A DNA stretch of 57,563 bases from an uncultured bacterium (GTDB lineage Bacteria > Hydrothermota > Hydrothermia > UBA1063 > CAJXJZ01), in NCBI GenBank assembly GCA_913055745.1, contig CAJXJZ010000002.1:1-57563 (forward strand), written 5' to 3'. Both the position numbers and the translations under genes were made by a program. The first letter of the stretch is position 1. Each line of letters starts with the position of its first letter. Below, piece after piece: positions 3 through 18,002 of the stretch. Under the pieces are notes generated by a model. That model saw nothing but the letters and a program-made list of their open reading frames with translations. It had not been told where the DNA came from and did not search any database.

Positions 3-1250
3 AGACCAGAGGATAGGAGTGATATAGAGGAGAAGATAGGTGATGTATACATGTACATAGGTGATTTCAAAGAATCACTTAAATTTTACGAGAGTGCTAA
101 GGAACATGCTCCCCAAGTGGAGAAAAAATATGTTTATGATATTGACATTGCGTGGATTTTGAAGGAACAAGGAAAGGCTAAAGAGGCTGAAAGGAAACTA
201 TTAACAGTTCTGAGATATTTGACTTCATCACAGAAAGCCTCCCTTGCTACAGCGCATAATGTACTTGCTGCGATTTATATGGATAGGGGACGTTATAAGG
301 AAGCAGAAGAGCATTTCATGAAAGCCCTTAAGTTAAGGGAAGAGATCGGGGATAGAAAAGGAATGGCTGCTGTATATAATAACTTAGGGATTTTGTACTC
401 AAATCTTGATAACTATGAAAAAAGCATGGAGTATTACAATAAAGCGAAAGAAATATATGAGGAGATCAACTTTAAGGATGGAATGGCTACAATGGCATTA
501 AATATAGGGGTATTATATGTTGAACTTTATGATTTTGATAAGGCAATAGAATTATATAAAGATGCGATAAAGATAGATTCCTTAATAGGAGCAAAGGGGC
601 AGTTAATACGTGTATACAGAAATCTTGCCTCCCTGTATAGTACCCTTTTAATGGAAGAGCAGTCTATTATGTATTATGAAAAGGCCCTTGAGATAGCAGA
701 GGAAATAAATTCACCATACAATAAGTTCCTTCTGTTTTTAAATTTTTCTTCTATCTATATAAATAGGAAGGATTTTGAGAAAGCCATGGAATATCTTGAA
801 AAAGCACGCAGGGTAGCAGAAGAACTGAATGATGACTCGGTTTGGGTTTCCTATTATGATAATCTCATAGATTTTTATGAGGAACAAGGAAAATTTGCAA
901 AAGCGTATGATATGGCAAAAAAGGCGTATGAACTTACAAAAAATGTCAATGAGAACAAAAGTTCATACGAGTATCTTTCCTATTATTTTATCATTGCTAG
1001 GCTTGCTGCAAAGTGTGGAAAGATGAGAAGCGCTAAAATATATTTAAGGAAGGTATTTGAACATCCGAAGTTTAATAGCCCTATAGAGCAAAGACAGGCA
1101 TATATAGCATATAATCTTGGTCTTATCTATAAAGCATTGAGAGAAAATGAAAAGGCAAAGGAATACCTTAATAAAGCACTTGAGTTTTACTCATCGAAAG
1201 GACACAAATTAAACTTTAAAAACATTAAAGAGGAACTCTCCAATCTCTGA
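3..1250 (+). CDS. TPR-repeat protein, 5' end cut by the window
   Basis: The frame is already open at base 3 and stays open through the first ATG at base 51, and the codons before that ATG already read as TPR-like helix. The window therefore cuts the gene, and ATG 51 is probably internal. The visible ~415 residues are almost entirely tetratricopeptide helices with a ~40-residue period (the long-spacing type), with recurring patterns such as NNLGILYSNLDNYEKSMEYY. TPR arrays bind partner proteins; no catalytic domain, signal peptide or membrane segment is visible in this part. An effector domain (kinase, cyclase, ATPase or regulator) may lie upstream of the window. The gene ends at a bidirectional terminator shared with the convergent barrel gene. 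The repeat assignment is secure; the cellular role is unknown. Confidence 0.8.
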   Translation, partial: RPEDRSDIEEKIGDVYMYIGDFKESLKFYESAKEHAPQVEKKYVYDIDIAWILKEQGKAKEAERKLLTVLRYLTSSQKASLATAHNVLAAIYMDRGRYKEAEEHFMKALKLREEIGDRKGMAAVYNNLGILYSNLDNYEKSMEYYNKAKEIYEEINFKDGMATMALNIGVLYVELYDFDKAIELYKDAIKIDSLIGAKGQLIRVYRNLASLYSTLLMEEQSIMYYEKALEIAEEINSPYNKFLLFLNFSSIYINRKDFEKAMEYLEKARRVAEELNDDSVWVSYYDNLIDFYEEQGKFAKAYDMAKKAYELTKNVNENKSSYEYLSYYFIIARLAAKCGKMRSAKIYLRKVFEHPKFNSPIEQRQAYIAYNLGLIYKALRENEKAKEYLNKALEFYSSKGHKLNFKNIKEELSNL

Positions 1251-11298: not shown

Positions 11299-12225
11299 TT
11301 GGAGTATACGTTTGGACCTGTGCCTTCAAGGAGACTTGGTAGGTCGTTGGGGGTAAATCCTATACCGTTTAAAACCTGTAATTACTCTTGTGTCTATTGT
11401 CAATTGGGGCATACTATCAATTTTACCAACAAAAGGGAAACATTTTTCCCCCCTGATGAAATGGCAGATGAGATTGTAGATGTATGTAAAAAGAAGTTTG
11501 ATAAGATTGATTACATCACATTTGTGGGTGAAGGAGAGCCCACACTTTATAAAGGGCTTTATACTGTAGTAGAAAGTATTAAAAAATCCTGTAATAAGCC
11601 AATAGCAATTATAACAAACGGCGGTCTTTTCTATGAAAAAGAGGTAAGATGGGATGTATCTCTATTTGATGTTATATTAAGTAAGATAGATGCACCGGAT
11701 GAGAGGACATTTAGAAGAATAAATAGGCCCTATAAAGGGATAACCTTTGAGAAATTTATAAATGGTATGATGGCATTAAAAAACGAGTTTAAAGGAAAAC
11801 TCTGGATTGAGACAATGCTCGTGAAGGGCATAAACGACACAGAAGATGTACTTTATAAAATAAGACAGGTACTTGATACGATAAACCCCCACAAGAGGTT
11901 TGTTAGTATCCCAACAAGACCACCGCAGGAAGAGTGGGTAAAGATCCCAGACCCTGATACACTTTTTAAGGCATTTAAGATACTAAATGCCGTGCCCATA
12001 TATGAAGTAGAGTATGGAGAGTTTGACTTAGGCGATTCCATTGAACAGGGTATTCTTACGTTAATAAAAAGGCATCCCCTCCGCATGGAGGAAGTTTTGA
12101 AGGTATTGAGAGAAAGAGGGATAGATAATCCAGAAGATTACATGAAACGCATTAAAGAGAAACATGGAATAAAACTCAAAGAATTTATGGGATTTACATA
12201 TTTATTGCCTCCTGAAAGGAGATAA
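11299..12225 (+). CDS. Radical SAM enzyme (COG0731-like)
   Basis: A 308-residue protein with the canonical CX3CX2C cluster motif (Cys27, Cys31, Cys34 in CNYSCVYC). The N-terminal segment FGPVPSRRLGRSLGVN is typical of the COG0731 radical SAM group, and the GEGEPT motif (SAM binding) follows. No second cluster motif is visible, and the C-terminal ~70 residues look like a small helical domain. Its substrate is unknown; COG0731 includes tRNA wybutosine-like and uncharacterised enzymes. The start codon is TTG at 11299, supported by AGGAGG four bases upstream. It is on the strand of the Fur-box genes but separated from them by a terminator. Confidence 0.85.
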   Translation: MEYTFGPVPSRRLGRSLGVNPIPFKTCNYSCVYCQLGHTINFTNKRETFFPPDEMADEIVDVCKKKFDKIDYITFVGEGEPTLYKGLYTVVESIKKSCNKPIAIITNGGLFYEKEVRWDVSLFDVILSKIDAPDERTFRRINRPYKGITFEKFINGMMALKNEFKGKLWIETMLVKGINDTEDVLYKIRQVLDTINPHKRFVSIPTRPPQEEWVKIPDPDTLFKAFKILNAVPIYEVEYGEFDLGDSIEQGILTLIKRHPLRMEEVLKVLRERGIDNPEDYMKRIKEKHGIKLKEFMGFTYLLPPERR

Positions 12226-12296
12226 AAAAGCATATAAGAAGACCAGCAAATATACGAAGTTGGTGTTTTTAACTTTAATATACCTTTTTAGCATGT

Positions 12297-12302
12297 TATA
12301 AT
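12297..12302 (+). promoter_or_regulatory. -10 box of the kinase-helicase gene (near-leaderless)
   Basis: A perfect TATAAT ends nine bases before the ATG at 12312, and no Shine-Dalgarno sequence intervenes. The -35 region 17 bases upstream (TTTAAT) is weak. Transcription from here would leave a leader of only about 0-3 nt. Confidence 0.5.
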
Positions 12303-12311
12303 AACTATAGT

Positions 12312-14990
12312 ATGCTTAAACAAAAACTGGGCAGATTTGAGATTAAAGAGTGGATAGGCGGGGGGCAGTTTTCTGATGTGTATCTTGCTATAGATACCAT
12401 TATAGATAAAGAATTTGCTTTAAAGATACCAAGACAACGAGCGAAGGAGATAGATATGCTAAAGCAGGAGGCAAAGATCCTCGCCTCATTGGAACATCCA
12501 AATATTGTAAGGTTTTATTCCATAGAAGAGTTTGTGGATAGAATTGTTCTTGTCATGGAATATATAAGAGGCCAATCTCTAAAATCGTATCTTGAGAGGG
12601 AAAGGCGGATTTCTGTTGATAGGAGCCTTTCTATAATTAAGATGGTATTGGAGGGTGTGGGATATGCACATAGACAGGGCATATTACATAGAGATATAAA
12701 ACCTGAAAACATTCTTATTACCGATGAGGGAAAGGTTAAGATCACGGATTTCGGTCTTGCAAAGATTAAATCAGAACTTTCCATGTCTCTTTCTGTCGCA
12801 GGAACACCACTATATATGTCTCCTGAGGCATGGAAAGGAGAATATGATAAAAGAAGCGATATATATTCCATTGGTGCTATATTGTATGAAATGTTATCAG
12901 GGATGCCTCCATATGAAGGTGCATCCTTTGAAGAGTTGAGGCACAAGATACTTCATGGCAAGTTAAGAAAAATAAGAGGGATTCCTCCAAATCTCTGGAT
13001 AGCCATAGAAAAGGCGTTGGCAAAGGACCCTGGTGTTAGATTTAGGTCATGCGAAGATTTTTATAGGGCTCTTGGGTCTGGTGGTTATATGCTGGAGATT
13101 AATGACCTGGTTACAGACGAGGGTAAAAAAAGTGAAATACTTTCAGGTCTTACACCTGTGCAAAGGGAGGCTGTAAAAAGTGGGAATGGTATTATTATTG
13201 TACTTGGAAGTGCAGGCACCGGTAAAACCTATACCCTTGCAAGGCGTATTGCTTATTTAATTAAGGAGAAGAAGGTTGAGCCAGAAAATATTTTAGCAAT
13301 AACCTTTACTGGTAAGGCGGCAGAGAACTTAAAACTTGAGGTTTCTTCGCTTGTTGGAGAACTTTTAACAAAAAAACTATGGATAGGTACCTTTCATCAG
13401 ATGGCAATGAGGATATTCCTAAGTGCCGCAGATAGGCTTGGGTTTGATGAGGAGAATCTTACCATTATATCACCCGAAGATGCACTCTCCATTATTGATA
13501 GCCTCTCCTCAGGGGGGAAGGCAAAATCAATAAAACGTGCGATAGATAGGGCTAAAACAAATCTTATAGGTCCAGAAGAATACAGAAGGTTTGCTAAATC
13601 CTCATGGGAGATGCATATTGCCTCTGTTTATACAAGTTATCAGAATCTTCTCAGGTCAAAGAACATGGTTGACTATGGTGATATTTTAATGTATGCAGTT
13701 TTGGTATTGGAAGAGTTTGATGATATAAGGGATGAGTTTACAAAAAGGTTTAAACATATCTTAGTAGATGAGTTTCAAGATATAGACCCTGCACAGTTTA
13801 GATTAATTGTCATTCTTTCAGAGAAGCATAAGCAACTATTCCTTGTTGGGGATGATGATCAGTCCATTTATGGATTTAGAGGAGCAAATCCAGAATTTAT
13901 CAAAGAACTGGAAAAATTTTACCCTACAAGGGTTAAAAGGTTTTATTTGAATACGAGTTTTAGGGTCCCTCAAAGGGTTATTGATGCCGCAGAAAGGCTC
14001 ATAAGTTATAACAAAAAGCGTATAAAAAAGCCCATGGTAAGTGTATCTTCTACAGAGGGTTCAATACAACTAAAAGAGGTAAATAGTGAGGAAGAAGAGG
14101 CTTCATGGGTTGCAGAGACCATTAAAAAAGAGGTAGAAAGCGGGCTTCAGTATGATGATATAAGCGTTATATATAGGGTTAATGCCTATTCTCGGTATTT
14201 TGAAGAGGTATTCATGAGGAGGGACATTCCATATAATTTAAAAACAGAGGGAGGTTTTTACGAGAGAGAAGAAATAAGGGCTCTAATAGGCATATTGAAA
14301 CTTGCAGAAAAAAGTGCATCCTTTTCTGATATTGAACTTATTACAAAGAGAATAATGGATGCATCACAAAAGGTTTCAAGGTATGTTGCATCAAAGATCA
14401 CAGGAAAAAGGACAAATATGAGGTTAAGTGGCATGGAAAAAGAACATGCAGAGTCCATTCTTAAATATCTTAAGAAGTTTTTAAGAAGTTATGATGAACA
14501 TAAAATAAAGGATTTGAGGCCTTTGGAGATTGTTGATAATTTTTTGGAAGATACTGGTTATTTGGGAAGACTTGAGAGGTCAAGGAGTTCTGCAAAATTG
14601 CAGGAGAGAGAGAATGTACTTGAATTTCTTGAGTTTATGACAAGGTATAAAACTGGAGAGCATAAAAAATTAGAGAATGATGTATCTCTTTTAAGGAAAT
14701 TAGGGATTGAGGCACAATCAGAGAGAGGGGTAAGGCTCATGACGGTTCATCAAGCAAAAGGTCTTGAGTTCCCATGTGTTTTTGTTGTAGGCCTTTATGA
14801 AGGCAGGTTCCCACTTCTAAGCGCCTTTGGAAATGAGGATAATCTGGAAGAAGAGAGAAGGCTGTTCTATGTGGCTATAACCAGAACTCAGGACAAACTA
14901 TATCTTTCCTATCCCAAATTTAGACACCATAAATATAGAAATGAACCATCTTTATTTATTACAGAGTTGTTTATGAAACCAGAAAAATAG
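12312..14990 (+). CDS. Ser/Thr protein kinase fused to UvrD/PcrA-type helicase
   Basis: 892 residues in one uninterrupted frame. Residues 8-255 are a complete Hanks-type kinase: Gly loop 15-20, ATP-anchoring Lys38, HRDIKPEN (126-133), DFG (146-148), SPE (170-172) and the final Arg in helix I. All catalytic residues are present. After a ~20-residue linker, residues ~278-890 are a superfamily 1 helicase: Q motif LTPVQREAV, Walker A GSAGTGKT (299-306), DEFQD, DDDQSIYGFRG, TVHQAKGLEF and AITRTQDKLYL. Both halves look active. The kinase may couple phosphorylation to DNA repair or replication restart, but this is inference. There is no transmembrane or PASTA segment, so it acts in the cytosol. It is single-gene, probably leaderless, and its stop is two bases from the convergent EamA stop. 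Confidence 0.9.
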   Translation: MLKQKLGRFEIKEWIGGGQFSDVYLAIDTIIDKEFALKIPRQRAKEIDMLKQEAKILASLEHPNIVRFYSIEEFVDRIVLVMEYIRGQSLKSYLERERRISVDRSLSIIKMVLEGVGYAHRQGILHRDIKPENILITDEGKVKITDFGLAKIKSELSMSLSVAGTPLYMSPEAWKGEYDKRSDIYSIGAILYEMLSGMPPYEGASFEELRHKILHGKLRKIRGIPPNLWIAIEKALAKDPGVRFRSCEDFYRALGSGGYMLEINDLVTDEGKKSEILSGLTPVQREAVKSGNGIIIVLGSAGTGKTYTLARRIAYLIKEKKVEPENILAITFTGKAAENLKLEVSSLVGELLTKKLWIGTFHQMAMRIFLSAADRLGFDEENLTIISPEDALSIIDSLSSGGKAKSIKRAIDRAKTNLIGPEEYRRFAKSSWEMHIASVYTSYQNLLRSKNMVDYGDILMYAVLVLEEFDDIRDEFTKRFKHILVDEFQDIDPAQFRLIVILSEKHKQLFLVGDDDQSIYGFRGANPEFIKELEKFYPTRVKRFYLNTSFRVPQRVIDAAERLISYNKKRIKKPMVSVSSTEGSIQLKEVNSEEEEASWVAETIKKEVESGLQYDDISVIYRVNAYSRYFEEVFMRRDIPYNLKTEGGFYEREEIRALIGILKLAEKSASFSDIELITKRIMDASQKVSRYVASKITGKRTNMRLSGMEKEHAESILKYLKKFLRSYDEHKIKDLRPLEIVDNFLEDTGYLGRLERSRSSAKLQERENVLEFLEFMTRYKTGEHKKLENDVSLLRKLGIEAQSERGVRLMTVHQAKGLEFPCVFVVGLYEGRFPLLSAFGNEDNLEEERRLFYVAITRTQDKLYLSYPKFRHHKYRNEPSLFITELFMKPEK

Positions 14991-14992
14991 GT

Positions 14993-15859
14993 TTATAAGT
15001 TGCCAAGACCAACCAATATACCACCTAAAACTATAAAGACAATACCGCTTATCCTTAATGTGTCAATATCTTCTTTTAAAAATATGTGGGCATAGACGGC
15101 GCTCATAAATGGGCTTGTTGCTGAAAGGGGCAATACAATGTACAACATGCCGTGCTTAATAGCAAGGAAGAAGAAGAACATACTTAAAAAGTCTCCTGCG
15201 ATTCCAGCAAGGATTACTTCCTGAAGAATAACCTTTTTTATTTCTTTAATAATTCCATTTTTAAAAACAACAAGATTAAAAATTAACAAAAATAACATGG
15301 CAAAAAAGGCGCGAAGGAGAGTCATTACAATGGGTGGTATTTCAAAAAGCACGATTTTAAATAAAAATGTGTTTATACCCCATAAGACTGCTGTAATAAG
15401 GGCAAATAAGAGGGCATGCCTCTCCCCTGTTCTTCTCTTTTTGTCGCTGTGTCGCATATAAAAAAGCCCTATAAGAATCAAAACAAAACCTAAAAGGGCA
15501 ATGAACTTAGGAACAATGCCAAAAAAGATAAGGTCAAGGAGGATGGATATGGCAGGATATGAATTTACAAGTGGATGAACGATAGTAATATCAAGACTTT
15601 TCATTGCCCTAACATAGAAATACCATGCAACAATGGGACCTATAAAGGAACAAAGAGAGACAAGCATGAGTGTTTTTGGTGTGATATAGGCATACCATGA
15701 TGGCATGTAAAACATAACAAATATAAGTAAGACAAAGAAGGATGTTCCTGATTTTAAAAAGGTGATGATAGTGGGTAGAGCCCGGGTTGCACTTTTTTTA
15801 AGGAGAACAGGCTGCATTCCACCAAATATAGCAGAAGAGAGAGCGTATATTATAGCCAC
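14993..15859 (-). CDS. EamA/DMT-family transporter
   Basis: A 288-residue protein with ten predicted membrane helices in two repeated EamA halves (about 1-135 and 145-288). Each half opens with a YALSSAIFGG / FALITAVLWGIN-type helix, and a short basic loop (RHSDKKRRTGER) lies between them. Family members export metabolites, amino acids or nucleotide sugars; the substrate cannot be inferred. The start overlaps the end of feoB by ten bases, so it is the last gene of the feo operon as arranged here. A metabolite or metal-linked role is possible but unproven. Confidence 0.85.
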   Translation of the reverse strand: MAIIYALSSAIFGGMQPVLLKKSATRALPTIITFLKSGTSFFVLLIFVMFYMPSWYAYITPKTLMLVSLCSFIGPIVAWYFYVRAMKSLDITIVHPLVNSYPAISILLDLIFFGIVPKFIALLGFVLILIGLFYMRHSDKKRRTGERHALLFALITAVLWGINTFLFKIVLFEIPPIVMTLLRAFFAMLFLLIFNLVVFKNGIIKEIKKVILQEVILAGIAGDFLSMFFFFLAIKHGMLYIVLPLSATSPFMSAVYAHIFLKEDIDTLRISGIVFIVLGGILVGLGNL

Positions 15860-17772
15860 GCGTACAAAAGCCGTGTAAGGAAAGCCAATAAAGTTGCCAC
15901 AGAGGTAGAAAGTAAGATAGAATAGAACATGATCTTTTTGTTGAATTCTTTGTATATTGCTGCCAAAGTCGCGAGACAGGGAATGTAAAAGATTATGAAT
16001 ACTACAAAGGTTGCAAGTTGTGCATTGCTCATAACACTACCCAATTGACTAAGTTTTGTGTGCATTGCTGTCTGAAGCATTATAAGTGTGAGTTCTTTTC
16101 TCAAAATGCCAAAGAGCAGTGTTGTGCCAACCTGATGTGGAAGTCCCAAAATGCCCTGCGTAAACGGTTTAAAGATATTGTTTATTATTGCCTCTATACC
16201 ATAAAACTGTGCAACACCTAAAAGCATACTTCCTGCAATAAGCATAGGCCATGCCACGAATAAAAACTCCTTTGCATGGAGCCATGTTTTTGAAAGTGCT
16301 ATTTTAAGGGATGGAATTTTGTATGATGGAATTTCAAGGACAATGCCGGGGGAGTATTCCTTGTTGAATAATGTGAGTATTTTTCCTATTATACCAACAA
16401 CAAAGAGATTGAGGATTAGTATAATAGCAGCAAACCACGGTCCCAATAACTTGTCGGATATTGCTAAAAGCACTGTAATTCTTGCAGAGCAGGGAATAAA
16501 AGGCACAAGGAGTGCGGTTAGTACCCTATTTCTCTCTTCTTCTATTATGCGTGTTGCAGTAATAGCAGGTACATTGCATCCATAACCTAATATAAGAGGA
16601 ACCACTGATTTTCCATGCAGGCCCATTTTGTGCATAAGTGTGTCCATAAGATAGGCAGCCCTTGGAATATAGCCTATGTCTTCAAGTATTGATATAAAAA
16701 ACATAAGTGGAATAAGATATGGGAAGACAATACCAATACCACCAGAGAGGCCATCCAAAGTAGCATTCCAAAGAGAATACAAAAGCCCATGTTTTTGGGT
16801 GTACAAAAGATCAAAGGGTTTAGTGAAGTATCCCTCTATAAGTGAACCAATTTTAAATGTTAGGTAAAAGAATCCCAAATAAACTATTGCCATTATAATA
16901 TAACCAAAAACAGGATGCATAACTACCTTATCTATGCTGTCAGAAATAGAATACTTTCTTTTTCTTTTAAGGGTTATTACCTTTTCTTGAATGGCCATGG
17001 ATGTATGGTGTCTTAAGGCATGTATAACATCGCTGCTTTCCATGGAAAATTCCTGCTTCAATGCATTTGAAGACATTCCTATTTGTTTATCTAAGTTTTC
17101 TAAGCATGTTCTATCTTTTATAAAATCACTACCTACAAGTTCCTTTCCCAAGATTTTAGCGGCAAAAAAATAGTAAGCACATTCTGAAGGAAAAGACATA
17201 CAACCAGTTAAGATGTTTTTTACCTTTTCTACTTCTTTATAAATATTTCCTGGAAGGTCATCAAGAAAACATGGAATACTAAGACCCTGTGTTTCTATGG
17301 TATCAAATAACTCCTTTATACCAGTACCGTGTGTTGCTATAGCAGGTACAACAGGGACTTTCAGTATTTTTGATAGTCTTTTGGTATCAATATCAATGCC
17401 CTTTCTTTGAGCCTCGTCCATCATGTTGAGTACTACCACCGTTGGTTTTCCTAATTTCAGCACCTGCAATGTAAGTTCAAGTCCTCTTGAGAGCATTGAG
17501 GCATCAAGTATGTTAATGATTATGTCATAATCCTCTTTGAGCAAGTATTCAAGAGTTCTATTTTCCGCTTCATCACCTTGAGTTAAGGAATAAATACCAG
17601 GTAGGTCCACTATCTCATATATCTTATTACCCCTTTTAAATGTGCCTTTTTCCAGTTTAACTGTTGTACCTGGTAGATTAGATATGCGTGACTTAAAACC
17701 AACAAGATGATTAAAAAGAGTACTCTTTCCGCAGTTTGGCTGACCTACAAGTACAATTCTTTTCTCACTCAT
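15850..17772 (-). CDS. feoB: Ferrous iron transporter FeoB
   Basis: 640 residues, shorter than the ~770 of enterobacterial FeoB. The N-terminal G domain has G1 GQPNCGKS (~8-15), switch I NLPGTT, G3 DLPG and G4 NMMD. A helical spacer follows (~170-260), then the membrane region with two Gate domains and the conserved GYGCNVPA and PCSARITV-type segments carrying the cysteines lining the iron path. It imports Fe2+ across the inner membrane. It overlaps feoA by four bases (ATGA) and is followed by the EamA gene. The Fur-like site before feoA suggests repression by iron. Confidence 0.95.
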   Translation of the reverse strand: MSEKRIVLVGQPNCGKSTLFNHLVGFKSRISNLPGTTVKLEKGTFKRGNKIYEIVDLPGIYSLTQGDEAENRTLEYLLKEDYDIIINILDASMLSRGLELTLQVLKLGKPTVVVLNMMDEAQRKGIDIDTKRLSKILKVPVVPAIATHGTGIKELFDTIETQGLSIPCFLDDLPGNIYKEVEKVKNILTGCMSFPSECAYYFFAAKILGKELVGSDFIKDRTCLENLDKQIGMSSNALKQEFSMESSDVIHALRHHTSMAIQEKVITLKRKRKYSISDSIDKVVMHPVFGYIIMAIVYLGFFYLTFKIGSLIEGYFTKPFDLLYTQKHGLLYSLWNATLDGLSGGIGIVFPYLIPLMFFISILEDIGYIPRAAYLMDTLMHKMGLHGKSVVPLILGYGCNVPAITATRIIEEERNRVLTALLVPFIPCSARITVLLAISDKLLGPWFAAIILILNLFVVGIIGKILTLFNKEYSPGIVLEIPSYKIPSLKIALSKTWLHAKEFLFVAWPMLIAGSMLLGVAQFYGIEAIINNIFKPFTQGILGLPHQVGTTLLFGILRKELTLIMLQTAMHTKLSQLGSVMSNAQLATFVVFIIFYIPCLATLAAIYKEFNKKIMFYSILLSTSVATLLAFLTRLLYAWL

Positions 17773-18002
17773 TCTGCATATTCTACAATAATCTTTAGTG
17801 CTATGCCTCTTCCCAAGGCGAATTTAGAGCCATTTGTAAGGTTCTCCACAAAAAATGTGCCTCTAAATGGTGCAACTTGTATGACCTTGATGTAGTCTCC
17901 AATGTTAAGTCCCATAGAAAATAGCCTGTCTCTTACCCCTCTACCACCTTGTATCTGTAAGACTCTTAGAAGTTTGCCTGGTCTTGCATCAAATAGTGTC
18001 AT
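17769..18002 (-). CDS. feoA: FeoA, SH3-like partner of FeoB
   Basis: 77 residues with the FeoA SH3-like fold pattern: an LLRVLQIQGG strand, RDRLFSMGLNIGDYIKV, then the FFVENLTNGSKFALGRGIA beta-hairpin. FeoA binds FeoB in the cytosol and is needed for Fe2+ uptake. The ATG lies only six bases after a TATAAT box and has no ribosome site, so the feo message is probably leaderless. feoB follows with a four-base overlap. Confidence 0.95.
   Translation of the reverse strand: MTLFDARPGKLLRVLQIQGGRGVRDRLFSMGLNIGDYIKVIQVAPFRGTFFVENLTNGSKFALGRGIALKIIVEYAE

Follow-up and report, generated by a model that had tools for sequence, protein, structure and literature searches.

Architecture and conservation of the fusion gene

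The window analyzed here is a stretch of 57,563 nucleotides from contig CAJXJZ010000002.1 of an uncultured bacterium in candidate division WOR-3 (GTDB Hydrothermota). It contains a single uninterrupted ATG frame of 892 codons (892 aa) in which a Hanks-type Ser/Thr kinase is joined by a short linker to an SF1A UvrD-like helicase (Table 1). The earlier note on this DNA described a full kinase motif set (Lys38, HRD 126-128, DFG 146-148) followed in the same frame by a full SF1 helicase (Walker A 299-306 and motifs II-VI). These positions are correct and Pfam agrees: Pkinase (PF00069) matches aa 9-221 (3e-55; 188 bits against a cut-off of 31.7), and UvrD-helicase (PF00580, aa 280-537, 1e-71) and UvrD_C (PF13361, aa 545-867, 4e-50) both score far over their cut-offs.

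Table 1. The fusion gene, its domains and motifs, and neighboring features (nucleotide positions in the window; residues in the fusion protein)
Feature	Position	Residues	Strand	Basis or remark
Gly-rich ORF, 144 aa	10385-10819			very rich in Gly, Arg, Tyr, Trp
Radical-SAM gene	11299..12225		+	ends 87 nt upstream of fusion
Possible own promoter	12275..12302		+	TTAATA-16-TATAAT type, TG before second hexamer; just upstream of start codon
Kinase-UvrD fusion gene	12312..14990		+	ORF, Pfam, homologues
Hanks-type Ser/Thr kinase domain	12336..13073	9-254	+	Pfam, 48-homologue alignment
Kinase G-loop		16-21
Kinase K38	12423-12425	38	+
Kinase HRDIKPEN	12687-12710	126-133	+	H126-R127-D128
Kinase DFG	12747-12755	146-148	+	D146-F147-G148
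Kinase activation loop		Ser157/159/161; GTP 164-166; SPE 170-172; W174		W174 family-specific
Interdomain linker	13074..13148	255-279	+	25 residues
SF1A UvrD-like helicase domain	13149..14912	280-867	+	Pfam, 48-homologue alignment
Helicase motif I (Walker A)	13206-13229	299-306	+	GSAGTGKT
Helicase motif II	13767-13781	486-490	+	DEFQD
Helicase motif III		513-525		GDDDQSIYGFRGA
Helicase motif IV		550-551		FR
Helicase motif V		812-820
Helicase motif VI		847-858		R849, R850, R858
feoB, then 77-aa FeoA-like ORF	15850-18002		-	4-nt overlap
ARPP-1 beside cdaA, f4/f10				loci L173-L176, L183
ARPP-1 near Nudix genes, f1/f2				loci L165-L169, L184, L191

Both domains had also been taken as apparently active, a reading with which the alignment of 48 homologues is consistent, the active sites being intact and the catalytic residues essentially invariant. 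In the kinase, the G-loop, VAIK Lys, HRD Asp, Asn, DFG Asp and APE Glu are all present and conserved; K38, H126, D128, K130, N133, D146, F147, G148, T165, E172 and W174 are invariant (48/48), and a Ser or Thr precedes the GT of the activation loop in 46 of the 48. The helicase motifs I-VI follow one another in order, with K305, D486, Q489, D490, Q517, R551, K816, G817, E847, E848, R849, R850 and R858 invariant in 48/48 full-length homologues and E487 kept in 47. Two helicase residues, G299 and F550, together with W174 of the kinase, which is not the consensus in 21 standalone kinases, set the family apart from the phylum's standalone kinases and UvrDs. The linker is nearly constant in length, though not in sequence, with 24-34 residues from position 254 to 284 in all 48 homologues. 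From these alignments we regard it as close to certain that the fusion is real and that both domains would be catalytically competent. A predicted structure (AlphaFold, input with one relative) was uninformative (pLDDT 37.7).

The kinase shares its catalytic core and GT/PE activation segment with the PknB/PrkC/StkP Hanks kinases, but it lacks their transmembrane helix and PASTA repeats and carries a helicase at its C-terminus. It scores 241 bits against the PASTA kinase model NF033483 (cut-off 450). No membrane segment was found in the protein, as had been proposed, the highest 19-residue Kyte-Doolittle mean being 1.25, in the motif V strand.

The helicase had been called UvrD/PcrA, of which the UvrD-like SF1A part stands and the PcrA part does not. 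As in PcrA, UvrD and Rep (TIGR01073, TIGR01075; PDB 1pjr, 3lfu, 1uaa), all SF1A motifs occur in order, with about 35% identity alignable over aa 275-886. The fusion differs from these proteins in opening motif I with G rather than A, in an F for Y in motif IV and in its N-terminal kinase, and it forms a clade separate from the PcrA proteins that the same genomes encode. Its scores fall well below the PcrA, UvrD and Rep cut-offs (453 bits against 911 for TIGR01073, the match stopping at 631/725, and 350 against 1144 for TIGR01075), and the C-terminal extension is missing. A UvrD/PcrA gene is present elsewhere in the genome (G000:C20:9343-11190; 36% identical). PcrA orthology was rejected on these grounds together with the separate clade, and the separate gene, the sub-cut-off scores and the missing extension suggest that the fusion is an additional, specialized motor.

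Locally, the gene stands alone, as had been noted, and the downstream genes are convergent; across its range it is not alone, and in much of it has an operon partner, ARPP-1, with which it is co-inherited (see below). The possible promoter upstream of the start codon is of a type matched no more often than by chance (9 found against 9.7 expected in shuffles). The radical-SAM gene and the other adjoining window genes were rejected as partners because they are not conserved outside the genus, and the radical-SAM neighbor probably lies outside the fusion system. In two congeners, a lipoprotein-like gene of 548-551 aa, absent from the window, separates the fusion from the radical-SAM gene (L051 10665-12320, L052 10569-12215); its N-terminus, judged by eye, may be that of a clostripain-type peptidase. 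The feoB/FeoA-like pair beside the fusion is conserved within the genus. Further upstream, the Gly-rich ORF directly precedes a dinitrogenase FeMo-cofactor domain gene (PF02579), a domain often paired with small Gly-rich proteins, which this ORF resembles.

Distribution and origin

The domain order, which the earlier note had proposed searching for across genomes, is widespread. A first search, covering 60 relatives, recovered the same architecture in a single frame in many families. Within WOR-3 it occurs in 60 of 147 genomes and 32 of 79 genera, in one copy each, at a threshold of E ≤ 1e-115 that misses diverged copies such as the full-length fusion of G076 (1e-97). Contig ends cut the copies in G071, G134 and possibly G103. 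At E ≤ 1e-105 and 1e-108, two overlapping broad samples from outside the phylum (390 and 386 genomes) yielded the fusion only in G160 and G314; G204 was listed as well, but on inspection has no fusion. Two further small phyla beyond WOR-3 thus carry the architecture, and in that of G314 five genomes do. No full-length fusion was found on the plasmid, phage or viral contigs searched.

Maximum-likelihood trees group the fused kinase halves in a single clade against 21 standalone kinases (SH-aLRT 100), and likewise the fused helicase halves against 30 standalone UvrD/PcrA sequences (SH-aLRT 99). Given that each half forms a single clade, the simplest reading is one ancient fusion followed by joint inheritance, and these trees fit a family that has been vertically maintained from a single origin. 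Families f3 and f9 have no fusion; their soluble standalone Hanks kinases, 351-404 aa long, group in a common clade (L111-L117, L126, L127). These were rejected as a split version of the fusion, for they have no adjoining UvrD gene and fall outside the fusion kinase clade.

Both refuting conditions set by the earlier note, a misassembled junction and separate kinase and helicase genes in relatives, failed when checked. That the frame is an assembly chimera or a chance read-through joining two genes is vanishingly improbable, because the same junction recurs in dozens of independent genomes, several of them single-contig assemblies, with its linker length conserved, and because no genome examined has a kinase gene beside a separate UvrD gene.

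ARPP-1 as a co-inherited partner

We clustered the neighbors of 39 fusion loci, and one outstanding conserved gene emerged. It encodes an ARPP-1 protein (PF20208) of about 290 aa and adjoins the fusion on the same strand in 21 of the 39 loci, 15 of these pairs overlapping, commonly by 4 nt, or lying no more than 10 nt apart. The partner lies mostly upstream of the fusion, and downstream in two loci. Linked loci span seven WOR-3 families (f18, f25, f27, f29, f30, f34, f37), and the same linkage recurs in three families of two other phyla. Membership in PF20208 is clear (207-229 bits against a cut-off of 27), and the Cys and Gln conserved in the ARPP family are present. In the window's genome, ARPP-1 is unlinked and on the same contig, matching at G000:C2:76267-77091, about 19 kb past the window's end.

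With a profile built from the linked copies, ARPP-1 proteins fall into two types: the partner type scores at least 234 bits and is as a rule 278-306 aa long, and the other scores at most 205 bits and measures 314-452 aa. A tree agrees with this division, with modest support (81) on the separating branch. The unlinked copies of the window's class, including that of the window's genome, are of the partner type. Of 37 families, 19 have both the fusion and partner-type ARPP-1, and the remaining 18 have neither one (Fisher 5.7e-11, a value that overstates the case, as it treats families as independent although they belong to a single phylum). By genome, 57 of the 60 with the fusion have an ARPP-1. 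None was detected in the remaining three (G003, G008, G033), and no fusion was detected in G002 and G024, both of which have partner-type ARPP-1 (that of G024 typed by length and family, its sequence lying outside the tree). These five exceptions suggest either that neither gene strictly needs the other or that the assemblies are incomplete. Tight genetic coupling of the fusion to ARPP-1, as operon partner or by co-inheritance, is well supported by these genomic patterns, and functional coupling of the two is very probable.

Iyer et al. (2022) proposed that ARPP acts on ribose and might, like SRAP, make covalent links to sugars (PMC9503650). The family was originally reported from systems with a predicted role against viral ADP-ribosylation, and the contexts listed there (ARG systems, HIRAN, WYL, deacetylase) do not include a pairing with a kinase-helicase (PMC9503650). 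A PDB profile search with ARPP-1 returned no sequence-related solved structure. In the numbering of the window genome's copy, Q79, R81, C101, E103 and R106 are absolutely conserved; among the 51 partner-type sequences, C101 and Q79 are present in all and Q146 in 50. S168 is likewise invariant in 51/51; the residues listed for 32/32 of the others do not include it, and invariance in the partner type only makes it no more than a candidate phosphosite. The possibility that ARPP-1 acts on a sugar of DNA or of a nucleotide is real, if somewhat under even.

Possible roles of the kinase-helicase

Helicases, RecA and SSB are known substrates of bacterial Ser/Thr kinases, which are enzymes separate from them. 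A precedent for how the fusion might work is YabT of Bacillus subtilis. This Hanks kinase is stimulated by DNA, most of all by single-stranded DNA (PMC3708118, PMC6333020). ssDNA activates YabT, which in turn phosphorylates RecA (PMC3708118); in contrast to the fusion, YabT is membrane-anchored and has a small basic DNA-binding stretch and no motor. RqkA of Deinococcus radiodurans is described as a DNA-damage-responsive Ser/Thr kinase, and on that description can be set beside the fusion, with no helicase reported for it in the cited text (PMC6052341). Bacterial phosphoproteomes also include PcrA, SSB and other DNA proteins (PMC4754617). Our literature search found no description of a kinase-helicase fusion; as it covered open-licence papers only, this is weak evidence. 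What is new here is a soluble Hanks kinase with a motor as output or targeting module, and its previously unreported pairing with ARPP-1.

The earlier note suggested that the fusion would place phospho-signaling on a DNA repair or replication motor, which is plausible; regulation could also run in the opposite direction, the motor bringing the kinase to DNA. Taken as a whole, the best explanation, which we hold tentatively and at slightly less than an even chance, is that the fusion works with ARPP-1 as a DNA-activated kinase response to damaged or modified nucleic acid. The motor would load on ssDNA or on a stalled or damaged structure and then translocate. DNA engagement would cause clustering, or a domain rearrangement across the short linker, so that the kinase trans-autophosphorylates its Ser-rich activation loop. 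Once active, it would phosphorylate targets on site, which might be the helicase itself, ARPP-1 (perhaps at S168) or repair and replication proteins. Such local action of a DNA-activated kinase on DNA-associated proteins seems to us nearly, but not quite, an even proposition. ARPP-1, with its invariant Cys, Gln, Glu and Arg set, would then act on the lesion or nucleotide at its sugar or ribose, for example in abasic-like, 3'-blocked or ADP-ribosylated nucleic acid. The overall outcome would be a LexA-independent response to DNA damage or DNA modification.

The window's genome has lexA, so the fusion was rejected as a LexA replacement. Putative LexA boxes (palindromes) could be read upstream of lexA in f18 (TGTAAACAAATGTTTACA) and f11 (ACTATACATTTGTATAGT) (L211-L226), and no LexA-type box was found near the fusion operon in the f18, f29, f30 and f11 loci. 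This test covers families with a box readable from lexA; in the window's family, f1, none was definable. LexA regulation of the fusion was therefore rejected where testable, and a classical SOS role is not supported, given the lack of a box near the operon in those four families and the presence of lexA in the window's genome. A full LexA-independent damage-signaling machine, in which a translocase-borne kinase fires at a lesion and ARPP-1 deals with the sugar of a nucleotide that is damaged or ADP-ribosylated, is a speculative and rather unlikely extension. In sum, the architecture and the coupling are well supported, and the mechanism that we infer from them is plausible.

The main rival to a motor-delivered kinase is a kinase that switches the motor. 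Here the kinase would regulate the helicase in cis, giving a self-regulated repair or replication motor whose autophosphorylation switch answers a cytoplasmic signal, with ARPP-1 in an auxiliary role, providing or clearing that signal, which would be a nucleotide derivative. The short linker of near-constant length and the Ser-rich activation loop are consistent with this, as are the neighbors of unlinked ARPP-1 genes. In f4 and f10 (five genomes), partner-type ARPP-1 is followed by cdaA, encoding the c-di-AMP synthase, with a gap of 1 or an overlap of 4 nt; in f8 and f11 a RelA/SpoT gene directly follows or overlaps it. A Nudix hydrolase gene lies beside ARPP-1 in f2 (7-26 nt, opposite strand); in f1 a single gene, for a carbamoyltransferase, separates the two. 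Given these neighbors, ARPP-1 could serve nucleotide signaling rather than DNA, and may have a role in nucleotide second-messenger metabolism. Against cis-regulation, however, the kinase has no sensor domain, and beyond G299 and F550 no helicase residue is conserved in the fusions yet not in standalone UvrD, which leaves no obvious cis-phosphosite. We consider this rival unlikely.

An anti-phage role appears quite improbable. It would combine a GajB-like helicase, a kinase and an ARPP-1 that counters phage ADP-ribosylation, in keeping with the predicted antiviral systems in which ARPP was first described (PMC9503650). The helicase half does match PADLOC GajB (316 bits) and, like GajB of Gabija, has a UvrD-like core without the C-terminal extension; the kinase half matches PD-T4-6 (234 bits). 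These matches are generic, however, and PcrA models score higher (453 bits). The fusion also differs from GajB in its fused kinase and in having ARPP-1 rather than GajA as partner: neither the GajA OLD/TOPRIM nuclease gene nor any other defense gene is a conserved neighbor in the 39 loci. The stable, single-copy and family-wide rather than patchy distribution, together with these missing defense neighbors, makes such a role less likely, and the lack of full-length copies on the plasmids and phages searched also speaks against it.

Very unlikely, finally, is a kinase that is only targeted to the nucleoid, the helicase half serving mainly as a DNA-binding anchor with unwinding dispensable. A small DNA-binding motif suffices for activation in YabT (PMC3708118), but the helicase keeps every one of its ATPase and coupling motifs unchanged across deep divergence, more than simple anchoring would require.

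Our preferred reading remains a kinase activated on DNA and coupled to ARPP-1. Kinase and motor have been one polypeptide since early in the history of the phylum, with both active sites strictly conserved, and this raises a testable question, namely whether kinase output follows from DNA engagement or the motor is driven by phosphorylation. ARPP-1, an orphan family predicted to act on sugars, gains a concrete partner and an assay. Its shared inheritance with the fusion suggests an undescribed coupling of DNA handling to signaling. If the proposed damage-signaling role is true, the fusion would correspond in function to the DNA-dependent checkpoint kinases of eukaryotes while being assembled from unrelated parts.
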